Positions 6,110-46,509 of a stretch of 64,000 nt of DNA are shown piece by piece. Each line of letters begins with the position of its first letter. The first letter of the stretch is position 1. The notes below the pieces were generated by a model. The model worked only from the letters and a program-made list of their open reading frames with translations. It ran no database searches and was not told the origin of the DNA. The position numbers were made by a program, and so were the translations under genes. This stretch comes from Longimicrobiales bacterium (GTDB lineage Bacteria > Gemmatimonadota > Gemmatimonadetes > Longimicrobiales > RSA9), in assembly GCA_035461765.1 (NCBI GenBank), contig DATHUY010000047.1, positions 1 to 64,000 of the forward strand, given 5' to 3'.

Positions 6110-8257
6110 TCAGGAACCTGATTCTGCGATGGCGGAGGGGCGGCGTCCTTCCAGCTGGTCGGAGATGCTCGGCAGGTCAATGGTGAAACGCGTGCCGCTG
6201 CCGTACGTGCTCTCGACCTCCACCTCGCCGCCGAGCAGCGTGAGCAGTTTCCGGGTGATGGAGAGTCCGAGACCCGTGCCGCCGTATTCGCGCGTATGCG
6301 ACTGGTCGAGCTGTCGGAAATCCTCGAAGATCGCCCCGAGATGCTCCGGCTTGATGCCGATGCCGGTATCGGCAACGACGATCCTGACGCTGTGCCCGCC
6401 CTCCAGCCGCGAGGCGGCGAGCGAGACGTATCCGTCCTGCGTGAACTTGATCGCGTTCGAGAGCAGGTTGAGCAGGACCTGCTTGAGCTTCGTGCGATCC
6501 GTGCGGATGGACGGGAGGTCCGTCGGGACCTCGCATCGGAAGTCGAGGCCGCGGCCATGCAGCATGGGCTGGATCGACTCGGTCACTTCGGCAATGACCT
6601 CACGCACGAAGACCGGCTCGACATGCAGCGGCATTTTGCCCGCCTCGATCTTGGAGAGGTCGAGGATGTCGTTGATGAGCTCGAGCAGGTGCTGGCTCGT
6701 CTGGTAGGTCTTCGTCAGCGCCTCATCCTGCTGGTCGGTCAGCGTGCCGTAGATCCGCTCCCGCATGAGCGAGGTGTAGCCGAGGATGACGTTGATCGGC
6801 GTCCTCAGCTCGTGGCTCATGTTGGCGAGGAACTCGCTCTTGAGGCGCGACGCCTTCTGCAGCTCGAAGCTCTGCCATTCCAGTCGCCGGTTACGCTCTT
6901 CGAGCTCGAGGGTCGCCCGCCGGATCCGTTCCTCAAGCTGGTCGTTCAGCTGCTGCAGCTCATGCGCAAGCCGCTCGTTCTCCTCCGACTCCGTCAGATC
7001 GTGGATCACGCTGACGATCGCGGTGGGCTCGCCCCGCTGGTTCAGGATCTTGCTGCTGCCTACTTCCGCCGGGAACTCCCTGCCGCTCTCCGGGTCGACG
7101 ATCGTGATGCGTTCCAGATGACGATGCTCGGGACGCAGCAGAAAGTTGCTGATGAGGGTCGTGAAGCGGGTATCGTTTGCCTGAATCTGGTGACGTGCTT
7201 CCGCGTCGCGCGTCTGGTCGTCCACTACGAACAGGCGGTCCGCCTCGGGATTCATGAGCACGATGTTCGTGCTCTCGTCGGTGACCAGGATGGGATCACT
7301 GACGTTCTCGAGAATCACGTTCAGCCGGTCGCGCTCCAGTCGTGCGTCGTGTTCTGCGACACGGGACCGGTTGTACTGCACCTCCAGCTCACCCACGACC
7401 TGGCGCAGGTCGGTGATATCGCGCAGCACGGAGATCATGCCGGGCTGGCCACCGATGTTTTCGACCGGCACCGCCAGCACCTCGAACAGCAGGTCCGAGC
7501 CGTCCTGGGCATCGACCAGGTTCAGCTCGCGTGAGCGGTCCTCACTCGACGTGATCGCGGTCTGTGTGAGCAGCGAGCTGAAGAGCAGGTTGTTGATCTG
7601 CACCGCGCGACGACGGCCCTCGCTGTCATCCGACTGCGCCATGAGCAGGTGCTCGGCCCGGCGGTTGGACAGCACGATGTTGTTGTCCGCGTCCGTGAGC
7701 AGCACCGGGTCGGGCATGGCATTGACGATGGTCGTCAGCAGGTCACGCTGCCGCGCAGAACGCCTGCCCCGCGCCGATAGCGACTCGATCTCCGCGAAGC
7801 GGCCCAGCATGGGGCCGAGCCGGCTCATCAGGCTGAAGAAGCCGGTGCTGGAGTCGTCCACGACGTGCGACTCCACGAGCCCCGCGCCGATGACTTTGCC
7901 GGAGACGTCGCGGAAGCTGAACGCCACGAAGGATGTGAACTCCAGCGGCGGGAAGGAACCGGCGCCGCGCACGACCGGGGCTCCGCCCTGCAGTGCGCCG
8001 TTCTCGATGAGGTCGAGCACGGGCGAGTCGGGCTGATCGAGTGCACGCAACACGCTATGCGTGCGCGAGTCCGTGCCCCACACGGCTCCGCGCAGGCCGG
8101 CCTCCGTATTCACGGCCAGCACTGCGCGCTGCAGACCGAACTGCCGGGCCGCACGCTCGAGCACGATGGAACACGCGTCTCCCAGGTCGGGAGCCCGTGA
8201 GATCTCCTCCAGGAGCTCGGCGACGATGACGTCCGGCGGACCCGGCTCTACTGCCAC
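6110..8257 (-). CDS. Soluble hybrid-free PAS sensor histidine kinase at the end of the gas vesicle operon
   Basis: This 715-residue histidine kinase has no transmembrane segment. The N-terminal 160 residues look GAF-like. Two PAS domains follow, marked by NAMPDPVLLTDADNNIVLSN and NVSDPILVTDESTNIVLMN, joined to a coiled coil (NDQLEERIRRATLELEERNR). The kinase core has H-box MSHELRTPINVILG, N-box LLSNAIKF, G1 DTGIGI and G2 GTGLGLSITRKL. There is no receiver domain. The start lies 8 bases after the gvpA stop, so it belongs to the same transcript as the gas vesicle genes. A role in sensing redox, light or small ligands to control gas vesicle output is inferred from position only. Its response regulator is not in the window. 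Confidence 0.93.
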   Translation of the reverse strand: MAVEPGPPDVIVAELLEEISRAPDLGDACSIVLERAARQFGLQRAVLAVNTEAGLRGAVWGTDSRTHSVLRALDQPDSPVLDLIENGALQGGAPVVRGAGSFPPLEFTSFVAFSFRDVSGKVIGAGLVESHVVDDSSTGFFSLMSRLGPMLGRFAEIESLSARGRRSARQRDLLTTIVNAMPDPVLLTDADNNIVLSNRRAEHLLMAQSDDSEGRRRAVQINNLLFSSLLTQTAITSSEDRSRELNLVDAQDGSDLLFEVLAVPVENIGGQPGMISVLRDITDLRQVVGELEVQYNRSRVAEHDARLERDRLNVILENVSDPILVTDESTNIVLMNPEADRLFVVDDQTRDAEARHQIQANDTRFTTLISNFLLRPEHRHLERITIVDPESGREFPAEVGSSKILNQRGEPTAIVSVIHDLTESEENERLAHELQQLNDQLEERIRRATLELEERNRRLEWQSFELQKASRLKSEFLANMSHELRTPINVILGYTSLMRERIYGTLTDQQDEALTKTYQTSQHLLELINDILDLSKIEAGKMPLHVEPVFVREVIAEVTESIQPMLHGRGLDFRCEVPTDLPSIRTDRTKLKQVLLNLLSNAIKFTQDGYVSLAASRLEGGHSVRIVVADTGIGIKPEHLGAIFEDFRQLDQSHTREYGGTGLGLSITRKLLTLLGGEVEVESTYGSGTRFTIDLPSISDQLEGRRPSAIAESGS

Positions 8258-8265
8258 CGCTCAAC

Positions 8266-8568
8266 TCAACTGAGTTCGTCCAGTTTGCGTCTCAGCTCGG
8301 CGTTCTCCGCCATGATGCGATCCATCTCGCTCGTGGTCGGCGGCGGCCCTGCCGTGAGCGGCCGCGACGAGGTGCCGGTCAGCGCGATCGCCTCTGCGAA
8401 CCGCAGATACGTCTCCACCGATGCGACGACGATGCGCGCTTCCACACTGACGAGATCGATCCCGACCAGTGAAACCCGGACGTAGGCATCGATGACGATG
8501 CCCTTGTCGAGGACCCGGTCCAGAACGTCAATGAGGCTGCTGCCCGCAGCTGCCCTTTCGACCGCCAT
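8266..8568 (-). CDS. gvpA: Gas vesicle major structural protein GvpA, with C-terminal helical extension
   Basis: GvpA is the small hydrophobic protein whose polymer forms the gas vesicle shell. Residues 10-62 carry the family core: [20 protein letters not shown], then [20 protein letters not shown] and [12 protein letters not shown]. These match GvpA rather than GvpJ or GvpS. I chose ATG at 8568 ([11 protein letters not shown]), the usual GvpA N terminus, over a longer upstream frame that would run into gvpJ. The protein is 100 residues, against about 70 in common GvpA. The extra C terminus ([20 protein letters not shown], residues 81-100) looks like an amphipathic or coiled-coil helix. It starts 1 base after the gvpJ stop. 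Unusually for a shell protein, it is nearly the last gene of the operon. Confidence 0.92.
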
Positions 8569-8917: not shown

Positions 8918-9247
8918 TCAGAGCAGGCGACCCAGTGGACCCAGGTCGATGTTGAGATCCTCGCCTTCCAGTCCGAACACCGTCTTGATGTCGCCGAGAC
9001 GCTCCTCCAGTCGCATCAGCGCCAGCCCGACATTCTCGATCTCCTCGTCCGTCAGACCGCCACCCTCCATGCGTCGCACCGCCTGGTGCTCCAGCACCTG
9101 CCGGAGAAATTCGACGAGCGTCAGCACCAGCCGCCCGAGACCTGCCTCGATGTCATCAGCGGATGCGTCGATCCGCTGGGGCAGTGCCGGGGCGATGTCC
9201 CTCAGCTCGGCGGCAACCCGCTCCAGGTCATCACCTTCGAACTTCAT
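8918..9247 (-). CDS. gvpK: Gas vesicle protein GvpK
   Basis: GvpK is a small conserved accessory protein needed for gas vesicle formation. The 109-residue product begins MKFEGDDLERVAAELRD and contains the family core LGRLVLTLVEFLRQVLEHQA and LTDEEIENVGLALMRLEERL. I chose ATG at 9247, which forms an ATGA overlap with the gvpF3 stop, rather than an upstream in-frame codon. Translational coupling to gvpF3 is therefore likely. Confidence 0.9.
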   Translation of the reverse strand: MKFEGDDLERVAAELRDIAPALPQRIDASADDIEAGLGRLVLTLVEFLRQVLEHQAVRRMEGGGLTDEEIENVGLALMRLEERLGDIKTVFGLEGEDLNIDLGPLGRLL

Positions 9248-9927
9248 TCGACGAACGAGTACGGCGGCCACGGGCCAGTGACGACCAGACGTGCATTCTG
9301 CAATGCAACGCGCAATGCACGAGCGGCGTCATGGTACGCGTCCGCGTCCGTCCACGCCACCAGGTGCGCGATCGTAGCCACTACCCGACCGGTCGGCGGG
9401 TACTCCACGCGCGTATCGATGGCGAGCAACCCCAGACGGGCCCCGGTTTCAGCGACAATACGCTCTCCCTCGCTGCGCCGTTCGGCTGCTCGAGCCCGCT
9501 TCCAGGCTAGCGCAGCCATGTATTCCGTGCCGGATTGGACGCTGGCAGCACGCACATCCTGTTCCGTTTCAGACACATCCCGCATCACCCGCACGCCGTA
9601 TTCCGCCCGGCCCCGAAAGCGCTCGAGCAGGTCGAGCCACCTCGCGGCCTCTGCCGTGACGAGCTCGGCCGCTGCACTCCGGTCCGGGGCAGACTGCCCG
9701 AAGCGCAGCGGCACTGGCGTGACGCTGCGGCCCATCGCGGCCGTTACGACGTCATTGTGCACGCGCACGGCGTCGACCGAAGCCGGCACTGGCTCCTCGT
9801 GCCCGGTGGCCCAGATGGCAAGGCCGGCGCCGGCATCGAGCATGAACGGACGTTGCGAATCGACCCCGATGCAGTGTTCCGGGACCGAATGCGCGTCCGG
9901 CACGATGCAGTAGAGGTGCAGGTGCAT
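9244..9927 (-). CDS. gvpF3: Gas vesicle protein of the GvpF/GvpL family (third copy)
   Basis: GvpF and GvpL proteins are soluble accessory factors that bind GvpA-family subunits and are needed for vesicle assembly. The 227-residue protein opens with a short strand, MHLHLYCIVPDAHSVPEH, has a VTPVPLRFGQ segment, and closes with the diagnostic LVVTGPWPPYSFVE. It is shorter and more divergent than the other two copies. It lies immediately after gvpS and overlaps gvpK by 4 bases. The F versus L assignment cannot be made from sequence alone. Confidence 0.88.
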   Translation of the reverse strand: MHLHLYCIVPDAHSVPEHCIGVDSQRPFMLDAGAGLAIWATGHEEPVPASVDAVRVHNDVVTAAMGRSVTPVPLRFGQSAPDRSAAAELVTAEAARWLDLLERFRGRAEYGVRVMRDVSETEQDVRAASVQSGTEYMAALAWKRARAAERRSEGERIVAETGARLGLLAIDTRVEYPPTGRVVATIAHLVAWTDADAYHDAARALRVALQNARLVVTGPWPPYSFVE

Positions 9928-10125
9928 TCAGGGGGGCAGCATGCGGCCGCGCATCGATTCGACCGACGAGAGGATGACGTTCAGGCCGAGGTAAATGAGA
10001 TCGACGCCCGCTACGCTGATCGTGATATCGCCCGAGATGACCGCCCCCTTGTCGAGCACACGATTCACGAGATCGACGAGCGCGAGCTCCTCATCGGACG
10101 ACATCCGTCGCTCAGGCATCACCAT
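9928..10125 (-). CDS. gvpS: Gas vesicle protein GvpS (GvpA family)
   Basis: GvpS is a short GvpA-family protein found in Bacillus and actinobacterial gas vesicle clusters. The core reads LVDLVNRVLDKGAVISGD, then ITISVAGVDLIYLGLNVILS and SVESM. The VDLIYLGL signature separates it from GvpA and GvpJ. The longest start at 10125 gives 65 residues and overlaps gvpF2 by 14 bases. ATGs at 10119 and 10104 are also possible and keep the whole domain. It stops exactly before gvpF3. Confidence 0.85.
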   Translation of the reverse strand: MVMPERRMSSDEELALVDLVNRVLDKGAVISGDITISVAGVDLIYLGLNVILSSVESMRGRMLPP

Positions 10126-10906
10126 AGAGCTCCACGAACCGGTAGGGCGCCCACGGCCCGGAAAAGCTGACGATCATGCCGAGCGCCGTGTACTTCTGAT
10201 AGAGCTGCGCTGCCACCGCCCGCAGGCCGTCCTCCGCATCGCGGGCCACGAGAAGGGCCGCGTTCAGCACGACTGTGCCCGCGTCATCGCCCTCCGTCGA
10301 TGGCAGCACCTGTACGTCTTCGGCGTGCGCTGTCAGCGCCTCCAGCAGCTCATCGGCCAGCACCCGCGCCGCCCGCGACACTTCCTGCTTCAGCACATCC
10401 GTGCGTCGCCGCTTCAGGAGATAACGGCGGCCGGGCGCCGCCTGAGCCATTTCTTCATCCAGCCGCCCGACCTCCGGTACGATCTCCGCACCGTGGCGTG
10501 CGAGCTCTTCGGCATCGTATGCGACCTTCAGGTTCCACTCGCGCCGCCCCGCCAGCGACCGGAGCGCAGCAGTGACGTCCGCCATGCGGCCGGCCGCGGC
10601 CTCACGCAGCGCCGCGTCGCCCGTGTACAAGCTGAGCATGCGGGCTGGCAGAATGTCCGCATGGTCCGCAAACCATATCACGACGCGCTCGTGTGCCATC
10701 CCCTGCTCGCCGACCCATGCCAGGTCCTGGAGCCGTGACTCGACCACCGCGGGCGCGAACTGCGCAGCCGGCACATCGGAGACGACCGCGCGCGTAGCGC
10801 CCAGATCGAGCAGACGTACGGACGCCTCCGCAATCCCCGTGACGCTTTCCGGCGGCTCGGGCGTTCCGGGCGGCACGAAGCCATAGAGGTAGACCATGTC
10901 GCTCAT
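10112..10906 (-). CDS. gvpF2: Gas vesicle protein of the GvpF/GvpL family (second copy)
   Basis: This 264-residue protein opens MSDMVYLYGFVPPGTPEPPE and ends with the family signature SFSGPWAPYRFVELYGDA. The middle holds WFADHADILPARMLSLYTGD and a helical, charged region around residues 130-200, as in other GvpF/GvpL proteins. I chose ATG at 10906 because it gives an ATGA overlap with the arsA-like gene upstream, indicating translational coupling. An alternative ATG lies 5 codons earlier. It would act as a soluble assembly factor for the shell proteins. Confidence 0.9.
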   Translation of the reverse strand: MSDMVYLYGFVPPGTPEPPESVTGIAEASVRLLDLGATRAVVSDVPAAQFAPAVVESRLQDLAWVGEQGMAHERVVIWFADHADILPARMLSLYTGDAALREAAAGRMADVTAALRSLAGRREWNLKVAYDAEELARHGAEIVPEVGRLDEEMAQAAPGRRYLLKRRRTDVLKQEVSRAARVLADELLEALTAHAEDVQVLPSTEGDDAGTVVLNAALLVARDAEDGLRAVAAQLYQKYTALGMIVSFSGPWAPYRFVELYGDA

Positions 10907-12858
10907 GTAACGATGTTCCACCGATCGATGAATCCGCGCAAGGCATTCACACCGACCGGCCCACCGTCGAGCGCGGGCGCATGCATCACGACCGGCTGAC
11001 CGGGTCCGTCGAATGGAGCCCGGCGTTCGCCGACCGCTGATGAACGGTTCACGACGATGCCGGCGACACGTACGCCGGCGGCGGCGAGCGCCTCCGTGAG
11101 ACGTTCGGTCTCCGCGCGCACCATGGCCTCATCGAGCATGACGATGATCACGCCGGACGATGCGGCATCGTGCAGGGTATCGCGCAGAGCACGGAGCTCG
11201 CGTGACAGATCCAGCAGTGACCCTGCGACACCACCTGCCGCACCGGCGATACCGTACTTCACAACGATCCGCATGAGCTGGCGCGTCCAACCCAGAGCAA
11301 TGTCCGGCATCTCCAGCAACCGGAGGAAATGCCCGGTCGGCGAGGAATCGATGACGACGAGCTCACCCGTCTTCGATCCTGCCACCATGGCTGCCATGGC
11401 CGTGAGCTCATCGATCCCGGGCGGCGTCAGGTGCCACAGTGTCTCGATGACCCGGCGGTCGAGCACCGCGGATTCGGTGAGACCCACTCGCTCCAGCGCC
11501 GCACTGATCTCCTCCTGGTATGCGTCGCGCAGGCGTTCGAGCTCCACTGCCGGCTCGATCTGCAGCACCCGCAGCCGCGCCACGGGCTCCCGCGCCGCGG
11601 TGCCAAGGACATCGCTCAGAGAGCCCGCCGGGTCCGTGCTGCACAGGAGTACATCCCGTTCGCGGGCGAGCGCAATCGCCGCTGCGGCTGCACACGTGCT
11701 CTTCCCGACGCCGCCCTTGCCCGCAAACAACAGCAGCCGCTGCGCGGCGCCCGCAAGCCACGCGACGGCCGTGGGCGCATCCGCACCACCGGAAGCAACG
11801 CCTGGAACCAACGGAACGGCCGGACCGGGTCCGGACTTCGCCTCGTCGGCCGGACCTGGTCCGGACTTCGCTTGGTCGGCCGGACCGGGTCCGGATACGG
11901 GGACCGCGGGGTCCGGTCCACCCGCAGGCCGCGGGGCCGCGCCACGGTCCGCCTCCATTGCGGGACCGGGCTCCGCAGTCATGCCGCCCGAATCGACATG
12001 CTCCCGCCACCGCCGCAAGCCGGCGCACCCGGCCACGTCCTCGAGCAGCGGCACACGAAGATGCGCGGCACCGGGCAGAACCTGCCGGCCATCTCCGGGC
12101 CCCGTGCTGACGACCGCGACCACCCGCAGGCTGCGGCGCTCCAGGTCCGCGACCAGCCGAGCGGTCTCGGCTTCCACGACGGCACCGGCCCGGGTCACGA
12201 CCACGAACGCAGCGGGACCGAGAACGCGATCCCGATACCCGCCGACCGCGTCCTCCAGCTCCTCAATGATGTCCTCGCCTCGCATGCGGACGGCGCGGCC
12301 AAGCATGGCGCCCGCCACCGCTGACGCCTTCTCCGCCATCGCGCGCAGCGCGCGCGCAATCCCCTCGAACGTGCCTCCCGCGTCCAGCAGCCGCAGCGTA
12401 TGGCCGGTCGGTGCCGTGTCGACCACGACGCGGCTGCGAGGTCCGGCCGTCGCTGAAAGCTCCACCAGCCGGAGTACAGCCATCATCTCATCAATGCCCG
12501 GCAGCGCGAGACGGCTGAAAGCAGCCACGTCCTCACGATCGAGATACGTACCGCCCTCGACGATCTGCGACACGGGTCCGAGCGCATGCTCGACCCAGGC
12601 GTCACCGGCCGCGCCGGCAGCGAATTCCTCGATGCGAAGCAACGGCGAGCAGGGCGATGTCACGACGAAGCCGCCGGCGCCGTGCTGGAACAGGTCGGCC
12701 AGGGAATGTGCGGGATCGGTCGAGATCAGATGAGTGGGCGTTCCGCTGTCGGCGAGCTCGAGACCCAGTGCCCCGGCCGTCGTCGTCTTGCCGACACCGC
12801 CCTTGCCGGTCACGAATATGAAAGGTGCGTCACCGGCCGCCTGGAGCAACCGGCTCAT
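10903..12858 (-). CDS. Tandem two-domain ArsA/Get3-type ATPase inside the gas vesicle operon
   Basis: ArsA/Get3 ATPases are dimer-type P-loop NTPases that drive arsenite export or target tail-anchored membrane proteins. This 651-residue protein has two such domains. The first has FVTGKGGVGKTTTAGALGLE, STDPAHSL and the signature DTAPTGHTLRLL. The second has LFAGKGGVGKSTCAAAA, STDPAGSL and DSSPTGHFLRLLEMPDIALG. A linker rich in Gly, Pro and Ala (about residues 290-355) joins them and contains a repeated SGPGPAD(Q/E)AK unit. No arsenite permease or regulator is nearby. The gene sits between gvpG and gvpF2 and overlaps the latter by 4 bases, so a role in chaperoning or inserting the hydrophobic GvpA-type proteins is a reasonable inference. 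Gas vesicle clusters normally carry the AAA ATPase GvpN, which is absent here. Confidence 0.88.
   Translation of the reverse strand: MSRLLQAAGDAPFIFVTGKGGVGKTTTAGALGLELADSGTPTHLISTDPAHSLADLFQHGAGGFVVTSPCSPLLRIEEFAAGAAGDAWVEHALGPVSQIVEGGTYLDREDVAAFSRLALPGIDEMMAVLRLVELSATAGPRSRVVVDTAPTGHTLRLLDAGGTFEGIARALRAMAEKASAVAGAMLGRAVRMRGEDIIEELEDAVGGYRDRVLGPAAFVVVTRAGAVVEAETARLVADLERRSLRVVAVVSTGPGDGRQVLPGAAHLRVPLLEDVAGCAGLRRWREHVDSGGMTAEPGPAMEADRGAAPRPAGGPDPAVPVSGPGPADQAKSGPGPADEAKSGPGPAVPLVPGVASGGADAPTAVAWLAGAAQRLLLFAGKGGVGKSTCAAAAAIALARERDVLLCSTDPAGSLSDVLGTAAREPVARLRVLQIEPAVELERLRDAYQEEISAALERVGLTESAVLDRRVIETLWHLTPPGIDELTAMAAMVAGSKTGELVVIDSSPTGHFLRLLEMPDIALGWTRQLMRIVVKYGIAGAAGGVAGSLLDLSRELRALRDTLHDAASSGVIIVMLDEAMVRAETERLTEALAAAGVRVAGIVVNRSSAVGERRAPFDGPGQPVVMHAPALDGGPVGVNALRGFIDRWNIVT
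11821..11895. repeat. In-frame 30-bp tandem repeat in the ArsA-like linker
   Basis: Units start at 11821, 11851 and 11881. The first two are full 30-bp copies, differing at a few bases, and the third is partial. Each contains the palindrome CCGGACC(G/T)GGTCCGG. Because 30 is a multiple of three, the repeats encode a repeated ten-residue motif (SGPGPAD.AK) in the linker between the two ATPase domains. Confidence 0.8.
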
Positions 12859-12864
12859 GGTGCG

Positions 12865-13323
12865 TCAGTCCCAGTCCAGATTCAGGTCTATGTCCACACC
12901 ACCGGACGGATCAGCCACCGGGGGCTTCCGCCCGACGCCCCGGGTGTCCACCTCGTCCTCGGCCTGTGCAGCGCGCGCCTCGTCATCATCGACGACATCG
13001 GCGCTGTCGTCCGGCTCGACCGATTCATCCGGCCGCTGCGCCTGCACGCGAACGGGCCCGCCCGACACACCCATGCCGAACTGCTCACGCCACTCGCGGA
13101 TCTCGCGCAGCTGGCGCATGAGGTCGGCCTCATATGCGACGTACTCATCATCGTCGATGTCGCCGAGCTCGAGCTTCAGCTGGAGCTCCATGAGCTCCGC
13201 CTTGATTCGCGTATCGTCCGTCAGCTCCTCCCGCACCACGCCCTGCACCTTGTTCATGGAGAACTCGGTCAGGAAGAGCGGCCCGGTGACTGGCCAGAAG
13301 AGGAGATGCTTGATCAGGCCCAT
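12865..13323 (-). CDS. gvpG: Gas vesicle protein GvpG with long acidic tail
   Basis: GvpG is a small helical accessory protein of gas vesicle formation. The first 85 residues fit: MGLIKHLLFWPVTGPLFLTE opens the protein, followed by a charged helix (ELMELQLKLELGDIDDDEY) typical of the family. The remaining 65 residues are strongly acidic and low-complexity (for example DDSADVVDDDEARAAQAEDE) and end in DIDLNLDWD. This makes it 152 residues, longer than the common 80-120. It is followed after 6 bases by the ArsA-like gene. Upstream lies a 136-base structured spacer. Confidence 0.88.
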   Translation of the reverse strand: MGLIKHLLFWPVTGPLFLTEFSMNKVQGVVREELTDDTRIKAELMELQLKLELGDIDDDEYVAYEADLMRQLREIREWREQFGMGVSGGPVRVQAQRPDESVEPDDSADVVDDDEARAAQAEDEVDTRGVGRKPPVADPSGGVDIDLNLDWD

Positions 13324-13459: not shown

Positions 13460-14269
13460 TCAAGCGTCGGCGCGCTCGAGGCGCAGCTTGATATTGACGA
13501 AGTTGTAAGGCGGCCAGGGTCCGGTGTACTTGAAGGACAGGACGTCTTCGTACTTCCGGGAGAGCGCTTTCACCGCCTCGTCGAACTCCTGCTCGCGGGA
13601 ACGCTCCACCAGATAGGCCGCGTTCATGATCATGCGGTCGCCGATCGGCTTGTTCGACCGGCTCGCGACCGCGACCGGCTTCAGCGACTCGTGGATGTCC
13701 ATGACGTAGCCGTTGGCGGTGCTCTCGAGTGCACTTTCGACAAGACGGCCGAGCTGCATCCGGGCGAAGTACGTCGAGCTCTGCGCGTTGCCCGTGATCT
13801 CTTCCTTCAGCCGGCGGATCTCGTCGTCGCTCTGCTCGAGCCGGCCGATGACCTTGTCACGGTCCCACAGCACCTTCAGGCCGAACTCGATCTTGTCACG
13901 CATCTTGTCGAGAACATCGTCGAACGCCTTGTACGTCGACTTCAACAGCTCTACGATGTCCTCCTGCGTGCGGAAGATCGTGCCGAACGACATGGGAATG
14001 ACGGTGAACTGGCGCATGACGGTCTCATTGACCAGCTCGTGGGCGAGGACATTCTCGCGGGTCGGATCATAAATGCGGATCGGCGTGTCGCTCACGACCG
14101 CCGCCAGGTCCTGATGGTTGACCGTGTAGACCTTGTTCTCGCCGTCGCCTATGCCGATGGGCCCGAAATCCCGGCTGTCGGGGGACTTGATGATGCAGTA
14201 GACGTACTTCCCCTCGTCGCTGGAGGGGCCCACGTTGTCGTCGAGCTGGGGCTGTGTTAATTCGCTCAT
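13460..14269 (-). CDS. gvpF1: Gas vesicle protein of the GvpF/GvpL family (first copy, operon leader)
   Basis: This 269-residue protein is the best-conserved GvpF/L copy. After a short polar N terminus comes the strand GKYVYCIIKSPDSRDFGPIG, then VLAHELVNETVMRQFTVIPM with SFGTIF, a long charged helix region (LEQSDDEIRRLKEEITGNAQ), and the C-terminal signature YTGPWPPYNFVNIKL. GvpF-type proteins bind GvpA and limit its aggregation during vesicle assembly. It is the first gene of the operon, with ATG at 14269. Confidence 0.92.
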   Translation of the reverse strand: MSELTQPQLDDNVGPSSDEGKYVYCIIKSPDSRDFGPIGIGDGENKVYTVNHQDLAAVVSDTPIRIYDPTRENVLAHELVNETVMRQFTVIPMSFGTIFRTQEDIVELLKSTYKAFDDVLDKMRDKIEFGLKVLWDRDKVIGRLEQSDDEIRRLKEEITGNAQSSTYFARMQLGRLVESALESTANGYVMDIHESLKPVAVASRSNKPIGDRMIMNAAYLVERSREQEFDEAVKALSRKYEDVLSFKYTGPWPPYNFVNIKLRLERADA

Positions 14270-19112: not shown

Positions 19113-19283
19113 GGCTTCACTTTGCGGTTACGCGCAATCGAGCCATGCGCGATTCCCAGGGCGCCATGCGCAATCCCTGATGCGCGACGCGTCATCCACA
19201 TTTTGCCTCACAACGAGGCATGCGACGCGCAGCCGGCTGTGGATGCCCCATGGTTGAACCGCCCTCAACCGCAAAGTGAAGCC
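19113..19283. repeat. Perfect 17-bp inverted repeat bracketing a structured convergent intergenic region
   Basis: GGCTTCACTTTGCGGTT (19113-19129) is found again in inverted form at 19267-19283. The right copy overlaps the last codons of the luxC-like gene on the minus strand. Between the arms are shorter repeats: GCCATGCGC twice, CATCCACA paired with TGTGGATG, and a GCCTC-GAGGC hairpin. Just left of it, about 19051-19100, the string ACCCCCGGGACC occurs twice. No transposase gene is present. Confidence 0.7.
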
Positions 19284-20674
19284 AGGTCCGGGTCCAGGTC
19301 ACACCATTGAACCAGCTCGCGGAGCGGTCCGCGTCCGTCGTGGTGCCAGCCGGGAGACGGCCATGGCATGTCCGCCACGGTCGTGATGCGCCTGGCGCCG
19401 GCATCCGCGAGCGACGCGGCGACGGCGGTCAGCTTTTCGGGCGGGAACCCGGAGAGGCCAACGGTCTGCAGCAGGTGACCGACGGGCGCGATGGCCCGTA
19501 GCACGTCCACCAGATCCGGGACGTGCTTCACGAGCAGGGTCCGGTTGAGGCAGGACCCCTGAAATGTCGGATCCGCGGAGAGGATGACGGAATAGGACAG
19601 GTCGTGCCCTGCCCAGAGCTCACCACCGCGCCCTGCAATGGCGCCGAACTCTGCGCTGGTGCGCAGATCGCGGATCGCGACGGCCTCGGCGGCGCTGATG
19701 CGACCACGCGGCAGCTCGACCTGGAGATCGCCGAGCGCGTCAGCCGCGGCACGGGCGAAAACGCGCGCTGTTTCGGCCGTGCCGATCACGTAGGCGAGCT
19801 GAGGCGAAACGCAGCCCTGCTGATCGAACAATGCGACCGCGCGCGCGAGATTCCCGGCCGCAGCGTGCACGTTTCTGTCGTCGGCGGCGGCGATTACGGC
19901 GAAGGAGATACGCGGTCCATGCTCTACGAAATGCACGTGCGCAGGCGCGCGCGCGCGCAGGGCCGCGACGGCTTCGGCCGCGCCATACTGCACGACGAGC
20001 CCGACCCGCGCGAGCGCGGCATCCTCGATGGCGCGATCACCGCCGCGCCAGTATGTGATGGCGACGCAGCTGCCGAGCTCGGGATCGACTTCGGCGAGCA
20101 GCCGTGCGAAAGCAGGGGCCAGTGACGGCTCGGTCGCTGCGGACTTGCCGAGCACGGCCGAGCGGACGAGCAGAGCCCGCACGATGGATGTGACGCCGAC
20201 ACCGGGCACGTTGCCGGAAAAGACGTGGAGTCCGAGCGGCGGGGCAACAGCCCGCACACGCCGCCCGCCGGCCGTGCGCGTGAACGACTCGACTGCATCC
20301 GCGCCGCCCAGCTCGACGTGAACCAGTTGCTCCAGCTGCGGTGCCAGCCAGTCGGTGACCACTCGGTCGAGGACATGCGCTGCCATTGCATCGGAGAAGC
20401 CGGAGATGTCGCGCAGCGACTCGAGCACCTGGCCGCGTTCGGGTTCCGCCGGGTCGAGCAGGCGTCGCGCCGCAGTATCGATGGATCGCACGACACGGGA
20501 TACCGGCATGGCAGCCAGCTCGACGCGCGCGGCCAGGAGCCGGGTGCATACGCGGTCGATAGTCGCAGCGTCCATGGCCGGGACGACGGCACGCACCCGC
20601 CCACTCTCGGCCACGACCTGCTCGATGCCTCCTGCGCAGTCCAGCGGCAGGTGGTGGGCGGCAATGCGCTGCAT
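19265..20674 (-). CDS. LuxC-like acyl-CoA/acyl-protein reductase
   Basis: LuxC-family enzymes reduce an activated fatty acyl group to an aldehyde through an acyl-cysteine intermediate, using NADPH. The 469-residue protein starts MQRIAAHHLPLDCAGGIEQV and has the aldehyde-dehydrogenase-like nucleotide region (PPLGLHVFSGNVPGVGVTSI). The probable active-site cysteine lies in ALFDQQGCVSPQLAYV. I chose ATG at 20674, 2 bases after the luxE-like stop, giving tight coupling. No luxA, luxB or luxD is present, so the aldehyde is probably made for another product. Confidence 0.87.
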   Translation of the reverse strand: MQRIAAHHLPLDCAGGIEQVVAESGRVRAVVPAMDAATIDRVCTRLLAARVELAAMPVSRVVRSIDTAARRLLDPAEPERGQVLESLRDISGFSDAMAAHVLDRVVTDWLAPQLEQLVHVELGGADAVESFTRTAGGRRVRAVAPPLGLHVFSGNVPGVGVTSIVRALLVRSAVLGKSAATEPSLAPAFARLLAEVDPELGSCVAITYWRGGDRAIEDAALARVGLVVQYGAAEAVAALRARAPAHVHFVEHGPRISFAVIAAADDRNVHAAAGNLARAVALFDQQGCVSPQLAYVIGTAETARVFARAAADALGDLQVELPRGRISAAEAVAIRDLRTSAEFGAIAGRGGELWAGHDLSYSVILSADPTFQGSCLNRTLLVKHVPDLVDVLRAIAPVGHLLQTVGLSGFPPEKLTAVAASLADAGARRITTVADMPWPSPGWHHDGRGPLRELVQWCDLDPDLASLCG

Positions 20675-20676
20675 GG

Positions 20677-21807
20677 TCAGCGGCCCCGGCTGTCGATGGC
20701 GTCGAGCAGCATGTCCATGGCGATGGAACAGCCGCGCGGCGTCGCACCGGCGGCCCGCCCGAGGAGGCGGAAACCGTCGTCTACCGCGACAGCGACATCC
20801 TCCGTCTGGATCGCCATGACGGACCCGGCATTGGCCAGGTCGAAATGCTGCAGCAGTCCGGGCTGTCCGGCGTCGACGGGCTCGAGTGATTCCGGATCGA
20901 CGACCCGCGTGCGTACCCATGGCGGCCCGATCTTGCGGCGCTCGCGCTCGCGGCCCATGACTGCGTCGCGCAGAGTGGAGTCGTAGAACTGGGACAGCAT
21001 CTCCGTCATGCCGTATTCGTTGACGCAGTGGCTGTCCGCAGTGCCGAGCAGCCGGGCGTAGAGCGCGCGCAGCGAGGATTCATCCACCTCACGCCCATGC
21101 CCCTTGAACCCACCCGTGTCCATGAGGCGCGAACCGGCGGGCAGCCGGAATCCTTCTCCTGCTGCGCTCAGCTCGTCCAGCCAGCGCACGTAGGCGAAGG
21201 AGGTCCCGAGCAGACACACCGGCGCGCCGGCGCGCTCCGCTTCGTGCAGTGTGCCGGCGAGACGGTCGGTGTCGATGCCGTGCTCGACGTCAGCGCAGTG
21301 GGCGCTCCCCTCCCCACCCAGCCGATCCATCACGACGTGGATCATGTGGGCGAGCGACGAATCCGGCATCTCCCGCGCCGACGGCATCAGCGACACCATC
21401 AGGGGCTGAGCACCATCGGGAAGGACGCATGCTGCGAAGTTGGGGATCAGCGACAGGTGATACAGTGAGGCGTCCATGACGTAATGGGTGCCGCGCTTTT
21501 CCGGACCGCGGGTGGTGCCGCTCGTACGGAATACGGCCTCGGCGTCCGCGGGTGCGCCGGTCGAAAGCGTCACTTCCTTGAATGCCGCCGTCGGGACTGC
21601 GGGAACGTGCGTCCAGTGCGCGACCGTGACGGGAGTCCTGCCCCGGCGGTCACAATACGCTGCGTACGGTCCGTTGCGCTCGTACTGGTAGGCGAACACA
21701 CGCAACGCCACATCGTTGAACCTGTCGTCATCGACCGGTGAGTCGAACGGTGTCGTGAACAGGTCCGCCAGGGTGGAACGGAGTGCGACTCCGTCCACAT
21801 CGCGCAT
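20677..21807 (-). CDS. LuxE-like acyl-protein synthetase
   Basis: LuxE-family enzymes activate a fatty acid with ATP and pass it as a thioester to a partner reductase. The 376-residue protein starts MRDVDGVALRSTLADLFTTP after GGAGG. It carries the ATP-binding motif FRTSGTTRGPEKRGTHYV, and later RLMDTGGFKGHGREVD and NEYGMTEMLSQFYDS, which are typical of the family. An upstream open stretch in frame has the wrong composition and was excluded. It is directly followed by the LuxC-like gene, which is its expected partner. Confidence 0.87.
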   Translation of the reverse strand: MRDVDGVALRSTLADLFTTPFDSPVDDDRFNDVALRVFAYQYERNGPYAAYCDRRGRTPVTVAHWTHVPAVPTAAFKEVTLSTGAPADAEAVFRTSGTTRGPEKRGTHYVMDASLYHLSLIPNFAACVLPDGAQPLMVSLMPSAREMPDSSLAHMIHVVMDRLGGEGSAHCADVEHGIDTDRLAGTLHEAERAGAPVCLLGTSFAYVRWLDELSAAGEGFRLPAGSRLMDTGGFKGHGREVDESSLRALYARLLGTADSHCVNEYGMTEMLSQFYDSTLRDAVMGRERERRKIGPPWVRTRVVDPESLEPVDAGQPGLLQHFDLANAGSVMAIQTEDVAVAVDDGFRLLGRAAGATPRGCSIAMDMLLDAIDSRGR

Positions 21808-21871
21808 GGATCCTCCGGTGCCGCTGTGCGCAGGTGTCGTGTGGTCGGCTAGGATACGGCCGGGGTGAGGC

Positions 21872-21888
21872 GGCGGCCAGTGGCCGCC
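21872..21888 (-). other. Hairpin between the histidine kinase and the luxE-like gene
   Basis: GGCGGCC (21872-21878) and GGCCGCC (21882-21888) pair perfectly around AGT. It lies in the 121-base gap after the kinase stop and may attenuate read-through into the luxE-luxC genes. No U-tract follows. Confidence 0.4.
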
Positions 21889-21928
21889 TGTGCAGCCCAC
21901 GAGCAGCGCGAGCGCGCAGCCGCGGGCA

Positions 21929-23335
21929 TCAGCCCTGCGGCACGGTCGTCTCGCGGTGCAGCGGTAGCGACACGGTGACACTCGTTCCCCTGTCAGGCCG
22001 GCTCTCCACGGCGAGCTCTCCGCGGAGCAGCCGCGTATAGCGACGCGATACGCTGAGTCCGAGACCCGTTCCCCCGACGCGGCGCGTATTCGGCCGCTCC
22101 AGCTGCCAGAACGGGTCGTAGATGCGGTCCATCTGCTCCTGCGGTATGCCGATGCCCGTGTCGATGATGTCGAAGTGCACCCGCCTGGCATTCGCACGCA
22201 GGCGCAGCGTCACCCCGCCCCGCTCCGTGAATTTCACCGCGTTCGACAGCAGGTTCATGAGGATCTGGCGCGCCTTGGCCGGGTCCGTGTGGATCGTCAC
22301 GTCCTCGTCCTGCATCTCCACGTCGAAGCTCAGCCCCTTGGACTCCGCGAGCGGCTGAATTCCCGCGGCGACGTCACGAACGAGATCGTCCGCGCGGACC
22401 TTCTCGAGCTGCACCTCCTCCGCACCCGCTTCCATGCGCGCGAAGCTGAGGATCTCCTCAATGAGCTGAAGCAGATGACGCGCGCTCGCACGGATCCGGT
22501 CCAGCTGATGGTGCTGGCGGTCGTTCAGGTCGCCGGAGACGCCGGCATCGAGCAGGTCGGTATATCCCATGATGGCATTGAGCGGCGTGCGCAACTCGTG
22601 GGACATGACGGCGAGGAAGTCTGCCTTGACGCGATTCGCCTCGTGTGCCTGGCGGTAGAGACGGGCATTGTCGAGCGCGATCGCGGCCCGCCGCCCGAGC
22701 TCTTCGGCAAGGCCCAGTTCCTCGTCATTGAAGGAACGGCCGCGCTCGGTCGACACGAGTGTGATCGCACCGAGGACATCGCCGCGGCCGGTGAGCGGCG
22801 TGATCATCGCGGACCCCGTCGCCACACGGTCCAGAAGGCCGGGGTCGACTCCGTCCGTTACGAACCACGTATCGGCCTTCAGCTGCGCCTGGACCTGTGA
22901 CCGGCCCGTGCCGGCAACACTGCGGACGGTGCTGCGCCAGCGGTCGTTGAGCGCCCGGTCCACCAGCTCGGTGAGAGGTTCGTCCAGGGAAGGATCACGA
23001 TGCGACACGACCGCGCGGACGAGTGTGCCGCCCTCGTCGATGCGGTGAATCGCGCACCAGTCCGCCAGGCGCGAAACCGCGAGTCGCGCGAGCGCTGTGA
23101 GCGTCGTCTCGAAATCGAGCGACGTGGCCACGAGGATACTGCTCGCCTCGGACAGGAACGCCGCGCGCCGCCGCGCGAGCTCCAGCTCCGTGCGAAGGGC
23201 AGTGTCTGCCGTCGTATCATCTCCCGTCTGCGCCGGCGGTTGCGCGCCGCTGACGTCATCAGGATGGGAGTGCGCGTCGAGCTGCCGGCGCCGCGTCCTG
23301 GCGGCGTCGGCGTCAATCACAGAGCGATCCGCCAT
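21929..23335 (-). CDS. Soluble GAF-domain sensor histidine kinase
   Basis: The 468-residue protein has no membrane segment. After a polar N terminus and a helix, a GAF domain (about residues 70-220; LADWCAIHRIDEGGTLV, DRVATGSAMITPLTGRGDVL) leads to a kinase core. This has H-box MSHELRTPLNAIMGYTDLL, N-box LLSNAVKF, G1 DTGIGI and G2 GTGLGLSVSRRY. I chose ATG at 23335 (MADRSVIDADAARTRR). It has no receiver domain. It is upstream of the luxE-luxC genes on the same strand with a 121-base gap, so co-regulation is possible but not shown. Confidence 0.9.
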   Translation of the reverse strand: MADRSVIDADAARTRRRQLDAHSHPDDVSGAQPPAQTGDDTTADTALRTELELARRRAAFLSEASSILVATSLDFETTLTALARLAVSRLADWCAIHRIDEGGTLVRAVVSHRDPSLDEPLTELVDRALNDRWRSTVRSVAGTGRSQVQAQLKADTWFVTDGVDPGLLDRVATGSAMITPLTGRGDVLGAITLVSTERGRSFNDEELGLAEELGRRAAIALDNARLYRQAHEANRVKADFLAVMSHELRTPLNAIMGYTDLLDAGVSGDLNDRQHHQLDRIRASARHLLQLIEEILSFARMEAGAEEVQLEKVRADDLVRDVAAGIQPLAESKGLSFDVEMQDEDVTIHTDPAKARQILMNLLSNAVKFTERGGVTLRLRANARRVHFDIIDTGIGIPQEQMDRIYDPFWQLERPNTRRVGGTGLGLSVSRRYTRLLRGELAVESRPDRGTSVTVSLPLHRETTVPQG

Positions 23336-44551: not shown

Positions 44552-45724
44552 CTACGCGGATTTGCGCGTCTTCTTCGCGGCTGATGACTTCCTCGCTGAC
44601 GAGTTCCGGCCACCCGACTTCTTCGCGGAAGACTTCGTGCCGCCTGATTTCTTCGCCGACGACTTCCTGGCACCCGCCTTCTTCCCGGACGACTTCTTCG
44701 TGCCCGACTTCCTGGCGCCAGACTTCCTGGAACCAGAATTCCCGGCGGCCGATTTCCCGTCACCCGATTTCTTGGCGGACGATTTCCTGGCGGCTGACTT
44801 CCCGGAGGATGACTTCTTCGCGGACGACTTCTTCGAACCGTCGGACCTCTTCGTCCCCGCAGATTTCTTCGATGTCGACGATCCGCTGCCACCGCCGCTA
44901 CCGCCCGTCGCGCGCTTTGCGGGCGCCTGTCCCTGCAGGCTGCGCTTGAGCACTTCCATCAGGTCGATGACACCCTCGGCCGGCTCCGCCGGCACATCCG
45001 GCGCCTCCACCACGTCCTCGCCGGCCTTCTCCTTCTTCGCGACCAGCTTCAACAGCTGCGCGGACGAGTGATCCGTTAACTCATCCTCGTCCAGGTCCTT
45101 TTCGACAAGCTTCGCGATGGCCTTCTCGAACTTCGTCACCACCGTCGACTTCGGCTTCTCCGGCTCGGGCAGCCCGACATCCTCCGCGGATCGCACCTCG
45201 TCGGCGAAGCGCAACGTTTCCGCGCGCATGATGCCGTTCTCCGCCAGGATCGCGATCAGGTACTCCTTGCCGCGCATCACGAACGTGGCGATGCCAGCAC
45301 GGCCCGTCTGCTCCATCGTTTCGGCCAGCAGACGGTAGGCCTTCGTCGAGTTGCCGCCCGGCGTCAGATAGTACGCGCGCTCGAAGTAGATGGGATCGAT
45401 ATCGGCTGCACTCACGAACCGGCGCAGATCGATGTCGCGGGTCTTCTCGGGCGCCAGCCGGTCAAGCTCATCGTCCGTCACGACGACGTACTGGTCCTTT
45501 TCGATCTCATAGCCGCGCACGATCTCGTCCCAGTCCAGCTCACGCTCCTCCTTCGGGCAGAAGTAGCGGCGGGAGAGCGGCGTGCCGTCCTCGGAGACCA
45601 TGCGCAGGGATACTCCCACCGACCGGTTCGCAGGGAACAGCTCCACGGGTATGCTGACGAGGCCGAACGTGATGGTCCCCGACCAGAACGACCGTGCGCG
45701 GACCTCCTGCTCGTCGGTGCTCAT
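44552..45724 (-). CDS. ku: Ku protein with long lysine-rich histone-like tail
   Basis: Bacterial Ku binds DNA ends for non-homologous end joining. Residues 1-260 form the Ku core: RARSFWSGTITFGLVSIPVE at the N terminus, RRYFCPKEERELDWDEIVRG, and FVMRGKEYLIAILAENGIMR. A flexible C-terminal tail of about 115 residues repeats AKKS, ARKS and SGKS units, resembling histone H1-like tails, and is probably a nonspecific DNA-binding region. It overlaps the second Ku gene by 4 bases (ATGA), giving a two-Ku operon. No ligD is in the window. Confidence 0.95.
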   Translation of the reverse strand: MSTDEQEVRARSFWSGTITFGLVSIPVELFPANRSVGVSLRMVSEDGTPLSRRYFCPKEERELDWDEIVRGYEIEKDQYVVVTDDELDRLAPEKTRDIDLRRFVSAADIDPIYFERAYYLTPGGNSTKAYRLLAETMEQTGRAGIATFVMRGKEYLIAILAENGIMRAETLRFADEVRSAEDVGLPEPEKPKSTVVTKFEKAIAKLVEKDLDEDELTDHSSAQLLKLVAKKEKAGEDVVEAPDVPAEPAEGVIDLMEVLKRSLQGQAPAKRATGGSGGGSGSSTSKKSAGTKRSDGSKKSSAKKSSSGKSAARKSSAKKSGDGKSAAGNSGSRKSGARKSGTKKSSGKKAGARKSSAKKSGGTKSSAKKSGGRNSSARKSSAAKKTRKSA

Positions 45725-46509
45725 GCGCTGGCCTTCTTCTTCGTCGCTTTCAGGCTCTGCTCGAGCATGGCGGCCAGCGACTCGTCGGCCGCCTTCTTCT
45801 TCGGTGCCTTCGGGAACTTCAGGACCTTCCCCTCCGCCTTTGCCTCCACCAGCTCGAGCACACGTTCACGGTACTCGTCATGGTACGCCGCCAGATCCAG
45901 ATCGCCTTCCAGCGCCTCCACCAGCTGCTTTGCCATCTGGATCTCGCGCTTGTCGAGCGCACGTCCGCCCGGCGCCTTCAGCACCGATGCCGGCACGACC
46001 TCGCCCGCATGGCGCAGCGTCATCAGCATCAGGTGGTCATTCTCCAGTCGCAGAGCCCCGACGTATTCCTTCTTTCGCATCACCCAGCGCGCCACGCCCT
46101 CCTTCTTCTGCTTCCGCAGCGCTTCCGCCAGTGCGAAATATTCCGACGCACTGTCGTCCGGGCCGAGGAAGTAGGGACGGTCGTACCACTGATGCGTAAT
46201 GACCTCGGGATCGACGAAGCGCGTGATCTCGATGTCGCGCGAGCCCTCCGGCTCCAGCTCCGCAAGCTCGTCCTCATCGAGCATCACCAGCACACCGTCA
46301 TCGGTCGGGAACGCGCGCCTCACATTCTCGTACTCGACGACCTTGCCGGTCTCGGGGTTGACCATCTGCTGTCTGACCGGCTCCAGATCCTTCTCGTGGA
46401 GCAGCCGGAAGTGCACGCCGCCGGTGCTCTTTATGGCGGAATACAGCTTGACGGGGACGTCCACGTCGCCGAAGCGGATCCTGCCTTTCCACATTGCGCG
46501 TGCGGCCAT
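45721..46509 (-). CDS. ku: Second Ku protein
   Basis: The 262-residue Ku paralogue starts MAARAMWKGRIRFGDVDVPV and contains VHFRLLHEKDLEPVRQQMV and ARWVMRKKEYVGALRLENDH, the family core. It ends in a short basic tail (KKKAADESLAAMLEQSLKAT then KKKASA). It differs clearly from the downstream Ku, so the two may form a heterodimer, as has been shown or proposed for some bacteria with several Ku genes. The zinc-ribbon-like gene ends 1 base upstream. Confidence 0.93.
   Translation of the reverse strand: MAARAMWKGRIRFGDVDVPVKLYSAIKSTGGVHFRLLHEKDLEPVRQQMVNPETGKVVEYENVRRAFPTDDGVLVMLDEDELAELEPEGSRDIEITRFVDPEVITHQWYDRPYFLGPDDSASEYFALAEALRKQKKEGVARWVMRKKEYVGALRLENDHLMLMTLRHAGEVVPASVLKAPGGRALDKREIQMAKQLVEALEGDLDLAAYHDEYRERVLELVEAKAEGKVLKFPKAPKKKAADESLAAMLEQSLKATKKKASA

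Follow-up and report, generated by a model that had tools for sequence, protein, structure and literature searches.

A two-domain ArsA/Get3-type ATPase in a gas vesicle operon and its candidate role as an accessory chaperone

The window (the whole stretch of DNA analysed, 64,000 nucleotides of a Longimicrobiales contig) contains a gas vesicle operon that includes a gene for an ArsA/Get3-type ATPase. The source contig is 91.6 kb long and the genome is 99.3% complete. The genes are as follows, in operon order.

13460..14269, minus strand, gvpF1 (GvpF/L family, 268.6 bits)
12865..13323, minus strand, gvpG
10903..12858, minus strand, two-domain ArsA/Get3-type ATPase of the gvp clade, 651 aa, ATG start
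10112..10906, minus strand, gvpF2 (GvpF/L family), 4-base overlap with the ATPase gene
9928..10125, minus strand, gvpS, short (65 aa) GvpA-like protein
9244..9927, minus strand, gvpF3 (GvpF/L family)
8918..9247, minus strand, gvpK, 109 aa
8570..8905, minus strand, gvpJ-like (GvpA family)
8266..8568, minus strand, gvpA (NCBIfam PRK09371 above cut-off)
6110..8257, minus strand, PAS-HisKA-HATPase histidine kinase, directly behind gvpA

The order is gvpF1-G-arsA-F2-S-F3-K-J-A with every gene on the minus strand, and the ATPase is flanked by gvp genes on both sides. Its ATG lies 6 bases from the end of gvpG. Its TGA (10905-10903) and the ATG of gvpF2 (10906-10904) form a 4-base ATGA overlap. The spaces between neighbouring genes of the cluster are too small for a GvpC gene. 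Genome-wide, the GvpN model TIGR02640 scores no higher than 34 bits (cut-off 266.8), and these scores fall on ORFs on other contigs of this 99%-complete genome; the same model passes the cut-off in gvpN-bearing genomes. Among the larger ORFs of the window, a Pfam scan found no arsenic genes. The initial annotation had described a tandem ArsA-like ATPase coupled to gvpF2 in an unbroken gvp run, with GvpN and GvpC missing from the cluster and no arsenic genes near, and all of these points hold.

A PAS-HisKA-HATPase kinase of about 700-800 aa abuts or slightly overlaps the last gvpA in 27 of the 28 gvp clusters examined in the window's phylum. It occurs both with and without ArsA (examples are L103, L105, L110, L123 and L125). 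In this phylum the kinase seems to be a constant member of the operon, and it perhaps senses flotation conditions.

The 10903-12858 ORF encodes a two-domain ArsA/Get3-family ATPase with two intact active sites. Pfam ArsA_ATPase matches it in two stretches with a total of 246.8 bits, and TIGR00345 (GET3_arsA_TRC40) scores 231 bits against a cut-off of 135. The arsenic equivalog TIGR04291 (NCBIfam arsenical pump ATPase) is far under its cut-off (151 bits vs 650), the ParA and MinD models score weakly, and TIGR02640, which describes the AAA+ domain of GvpN, is absent among the model matches of the protein. The genome has no two-domain ArsA besides this gvp-operon copy.

Among 13 relatives, both halves keep the P-loop, switch I and switch II without any change; therefore, both sites should bind ATP. 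The deviant Walker A motif GKGGVGKT and the conserved switches are present as in Get3/TRC40. The region before switch II separates the ATPase from arsenite pumps. The CxxE-type motif contains the arsenite-binding cysteines established for E. coli ArsA. It is found in both halves of 30 of the 31 non-gvp ArsAs, the exception being a Lyngbya sequence that falls inside the gvp clade. The window ATPase has no CxxE before switch II in either half and carries PGxDE there instead. PGxDE precedes every pattern-recognised switch II in the gvp clade (both halves in 24 members, one half in 20, none recognised in 1) and also appears in the alignment of algal ArsA1. Past switch II, the gvp members have helical stretches of 67-69 and 64 residues vs 55 and 43-47 in the others, and the hydrophobicity of this stretch in most gvp members is above that of the arsenite ArsAs. 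The TRC40 insert, the hydrophobicity of which characterises Get3 and not ArsA (PMC10248533), falls in this stretch. Alone among the compared ArsAs, the gvp clade has lost the arsenite-type cysteine motif and has gained PGxDE and a bigger helical subdomain in both halves.

The CXXC zinc motif is missing from the ATPase, which has cysteines only at 70, 278, 389 and 406. Some functional Get3 proteins also lack CXXC (PMC10248533), and algal ArsA1, a CXXC-less pseudodimer, is a carrier of tail-anchored proteins (PMC11170914). An AlphaFold2 model of the ATPase (pLDDT 77.5, pTM 0.76) was used in a fold search, which matched ArsA, ArsA1 and Get3, with ArsA ranked above Get3. The superpositions were loose (8-15 A on two-domain targets) and the relative placement of the halves is uncertain. 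The ATPase shares its fold, deviant P-loop, PGxDE and long helical subdomain with Get3/TRC40 and ArsA1 (PDB 5zme), and with ArsA1 also the pseudodimeric form. Those proteins are carriers of tail-anchored clients, whereas the window ATPase is the product of a gvp-operon gene and has about 23% identity to them.

A ParA/MinD-type positioning or partition ATPase that distributes gas vesicles within the cell would belong to the same broad P-loop class and fit the weak ParA and MinD scores, and in Halobacterium a ParA gene adjoins gvpO. However, the ArsA/Get3 models score far higher (246.8 vs 46.9 bits), and the protein is a pseudodimer with enlarged Get3-like helical subdomains that is tightly linked to assembly genes, so this role is unlikely.

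Strong GvpF/L matches are present in 42 of the 395 genomes of the window's phylum, and in about 19 of those 42 gvp genomes the ATPase lies between gvpG and gvpF2. Clusters of Myxococcota (L163, L173, L253) share this gvpG-ArsA-gvpF2 order, as do clusters from the phylum of the Terriglobia genome G402 (L317, L318, L326, L333). With about 19 genomes of the phylum and two further phyla having this order, the placement of the ATPase in the operon is not due to chance. Other gvp arrangements with ArsA are found in Cyanobacteriota, Thiohalocapsa and Chlorobi, and the gvp-linked ArsA of Chlorobi has a single domain (ORFs of 316-357 codons). Most of the genomes are draft assemblies, and clusters seen as cut by contig ends were excluded from the counts.

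In a tree of 76 two-domain ArsAs, 45 gvp-linked sequences and one from Lyngbya form one clade with a support of 100, and the 30 others lie apart. This clade spans five phyla and includes the window ATPase. Most of the gvp-linked rows were located via gvp genes, which biases the linkage rate; of the five clade members recovered by an ArsA-anchored scan, four lie within 10 kb of gvp genes. A contig scan with an ArsA alignment was dominated by P-loop matches and yielded mostly non-gvp ArsAs, which were used as the outgroup, and a tblastn search of plasmids returned mainly arsenic ArsAs. The initial annotation held that relatives carrying the ATPase without a gvp link would speak against its reading. 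One such case was found, the Lyngbya clade member (L165), which has no gvp gene within 10 kb; the other clade members are linked. The gvp-ArsA is under purifying selection (dN/dS 0.22-0.30). Judged by its relatives and its placement, the ATPase appears to be a genuine gas-vesicle component with a dedicated role.

An arsenite-pump ATPase that came to lie in the operon by chance would explain why the best fold match by E-value is an arsenite ArsA, and the two proteins do share the two-domain ArsA fold and ATP sites (compared with the E. coli and L. ferriphilum proteins). However, the window ATPase belongs to a separate clade with CxxE gone from both halves and larger helical subdomains, no ars genes were found nearby, and its placement is kept across phyla. 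An arsenite pump is therefore highly improbable.

The association of ArsA with gas vesicles was already reported by Castillo & Saier 2010 (PMC2963123), who described gvp-associated two-domain ArsA homologues in clusters 4 and 6 and proposed that they energise gas vesicle biogenesis. Those homologues also have two ArsA domains and about 640 aa and lie in a gvp cluster with no ars genes; gvpN is not listed in the acidobacterial cluster (PMC2963123). They differ from the window ATPase only in lineage and gene order. No experimental follow-up of gvp-ArsA was found in the open-access literature searched. As far as was found, the Get3-type signatures, the GvpN counts, the repeated loss and the GvpS-GvpK fusion pattern are new relative to that work.

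Some single-domain forms were also seen. In G186, from another family of the window's phylum (L122:349-8789), the order is F1-G-J-Hsp20-ArsA, with a one-domain ArsA, followed by F2-S-F3-K; the pair G186/G261 was excluded because the G261 contig is cut. Chlorobi-class genomes carry single-domain ArsA/Get3-like genes near gvp (L311:11847-13091, L311:15754-16905, L315:2357-3664) that score below the usual Chlorobi form.

The initial annotation further proposed that the ATPase chaperones shell proteins and thereby replaces the energy step of GvpN. A gas-vesicle role, independence from arsenic and a Get3-like architecture agree with the data, but the GvpN part of the proposal does not. GvpN drives elongation, since gvpN mutants are still able to make bicones but do not elongate them (PMC11445434, PMC11223475). 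An ATPase that functionally replaces GvpN would power the elongation of bicones into cylinders. In favor of this, ArsA is the sole P-loop ATPase of the window's gvp cluster, and GvpN is missing genome-wide here and in all ArsA carriers of the GvpN-less type in Myxococcota and the phylum of G402 (nowhere above cut-off in the genomes of L163, L173, L253, L317, L318, L326 and L333). However, none of the 42 gvp genomes in the window's phylum has GvpN above cut-off, so gvpN is always missing there when ArsA is present, but equally always when it is absent. ArsA and GvpN coexist in Cyanobacteriota, Chlorobi and Thiohalocapsa, and two further phyla have some clusters with both.

Among 88 complete clusters, 37 have both GvpN and ArsA, 13 have GvpN only, 21 have ArsA only and 17 have neither; four Chlorobi-class clusters with GvpN on another contig were scored as GvpN-positive, and three cut clusters were dropped. 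ArsA thus occurs in 37 of 50 clusters with GvpN and in 21 of 38 without, an odds ratio of 2.3 (p=0.07, with kinship ignored). If ArsA substituted for GvpN, the odds ratio should be well below 1; therefore, the replacement reading is unsupported. The two proteins are both ATPases encoded in gvp clusters, but their folds are unrelated (AAA+ vs ArsA/Get3), and the clusters with neither are under selection. It is unlikely that the ATPase stands in for GvpN; it is best regarded as a separate component, a substitute role being not supported.

By the GvpF1+GvpF2 tree, ArsA was lost repeatedly within the GvpN-less lineage. Its presence changes five times on this tree, and supported branches force at least three of these changes. 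The nearest complete cluster to that of the window (G143, same family, 67% identity) has no ArsA and an otherwise identical order, and no ArsA match was found in that genome, which is 92% complete. A genus-mate, G147, has ArsA on a cluster that is split over two contigs and hence lies outside the tree. The repeated loss shows that ArsA is not essential. In the clusters with neither ATPase, every gvp gene compared is under purifying selection (dN/dS up to 0.23, mostly <0.15). These GvpN-less lineages are natural knockouts of either or both ATPases, and they contradict a review stating that gvpN is present in all gvp clusters (PMC9501494).

Two other explanations of these clusters were considered and rejected. 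Another ATPase could stand in for both ArsA and GvpN, but no credible further P-loop ORF was found within 3 kb of 16 clusters with neither ATPase. GvpN could also have been overlooked by the model or be encoded elsewhere, but the controls work and nothing is above cut-off in the GvpN-less genomes.

The reading we favor, with a probability of roughly 0.5, is that this gvp-dedicated pseudodimeric ArsA/Get3 ATPase is an accessory Get3-like chaperone for GvpA-family subunits that works with GvpF2/L, useful but dispensable, and not a GvpN substitute. By analogy with Get3 and algal ArsA1, the helical groove of the ATPase would shield the hydrophobic GvpA-type segment of GvpS, GvpJ or GvpA. ATP hydrolysis might then hand the subunit to the GvpF2/GvpL-GvpK assembly complex; both the client and this direction are suggested by the analogy. 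This reading is consistent with the conserved slot between gvpG and gvpF2, the separate clade, the invariant ATP sites, PGxDE, the longer helical stretch and purifying selection. ArsA distances also track those of GvpF2 most closely (r 0.93, partial 0.75, jackknife 0.66-0.82, for neighbouring genes in 11 genomes). The preference of the fold search for ArsA, the missing CXXC, the repeated loss and the fact that the presumed clients are not classical tail-anchored membrane proteins count against it. How very hydrophobic shell proteins stay soluble and enter the growing shell is an open question (PMC11445434). A widespread gvp-specific Get3-like ATPase would connect gas vesicles with tail-anchor chaperones.

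A lead on the client comes from GvpS and GvpK. In the ArsA-less type II clusters of the window's phylum, a single polypeptide combines GvpS with GvpK, and gvpF3 has been lost. Fusions of this kind were also seen in L312 of the Chlorobi class, in two clusters from the phylum of G402 (L336, L338) and in L161, which comes from a Methylosinus plasmid. The GvpS-type/GvpK fusion ORFs are as follows.

L125:9851-10564, GvpS-type/GvpK fusion
L124:15008-15775, GvpS-type/GvpK fusion
L338:7539-8339, GvpS-type/GvpK fusion
L312:7852-8637, GvpS-type/GvpK fusion
L336:5630-6178, GvpS-type/GvpK fusion
L161:9399-10178, GvpS-type/GvpK fusion

ArsA is present in 0 of 17 fused clusters vs about 64 of 103 in which GvpS and GvpK are separate. 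Counted as about five lineages, this exclusion has a chance of about 0.008, for a test that was suggested by the data themselves. The exclusion fits GvpS as the client. However, gvpF3 lies between gvpS and gvpK and in the window's phylum the fusion coincides with its loss, so gvpF3 loss is an alternative link. The fusion as a cause of ArsA loss is a lead only. A stronger version is doubtful: a second ATP-driven assembly branch apart from GvpN, in which a Get3-like pseudodimer would pass free GvpS to GvpF2/L-GvpK and the GvpS-GvpK fusion would remove the need for it. In that case a Get3-type chaperone would be working for an organelle with a protein shell rather than for a lipid membrane.

Lone GvpF/L genes without the rest of a gvp cluster were also seen, some beside a single GvpA-like gene (L141, L143, L144, L339-L342, L346). 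Elsewhere in the window, a gene for a LuxC-like acyl-CoA reductase adjoins one for a LuxE-like acyl-protein synthetase (19265-22197, minus strand), and two Ku-domain genes have a 4-base overlap (44552-46509, minus strand).
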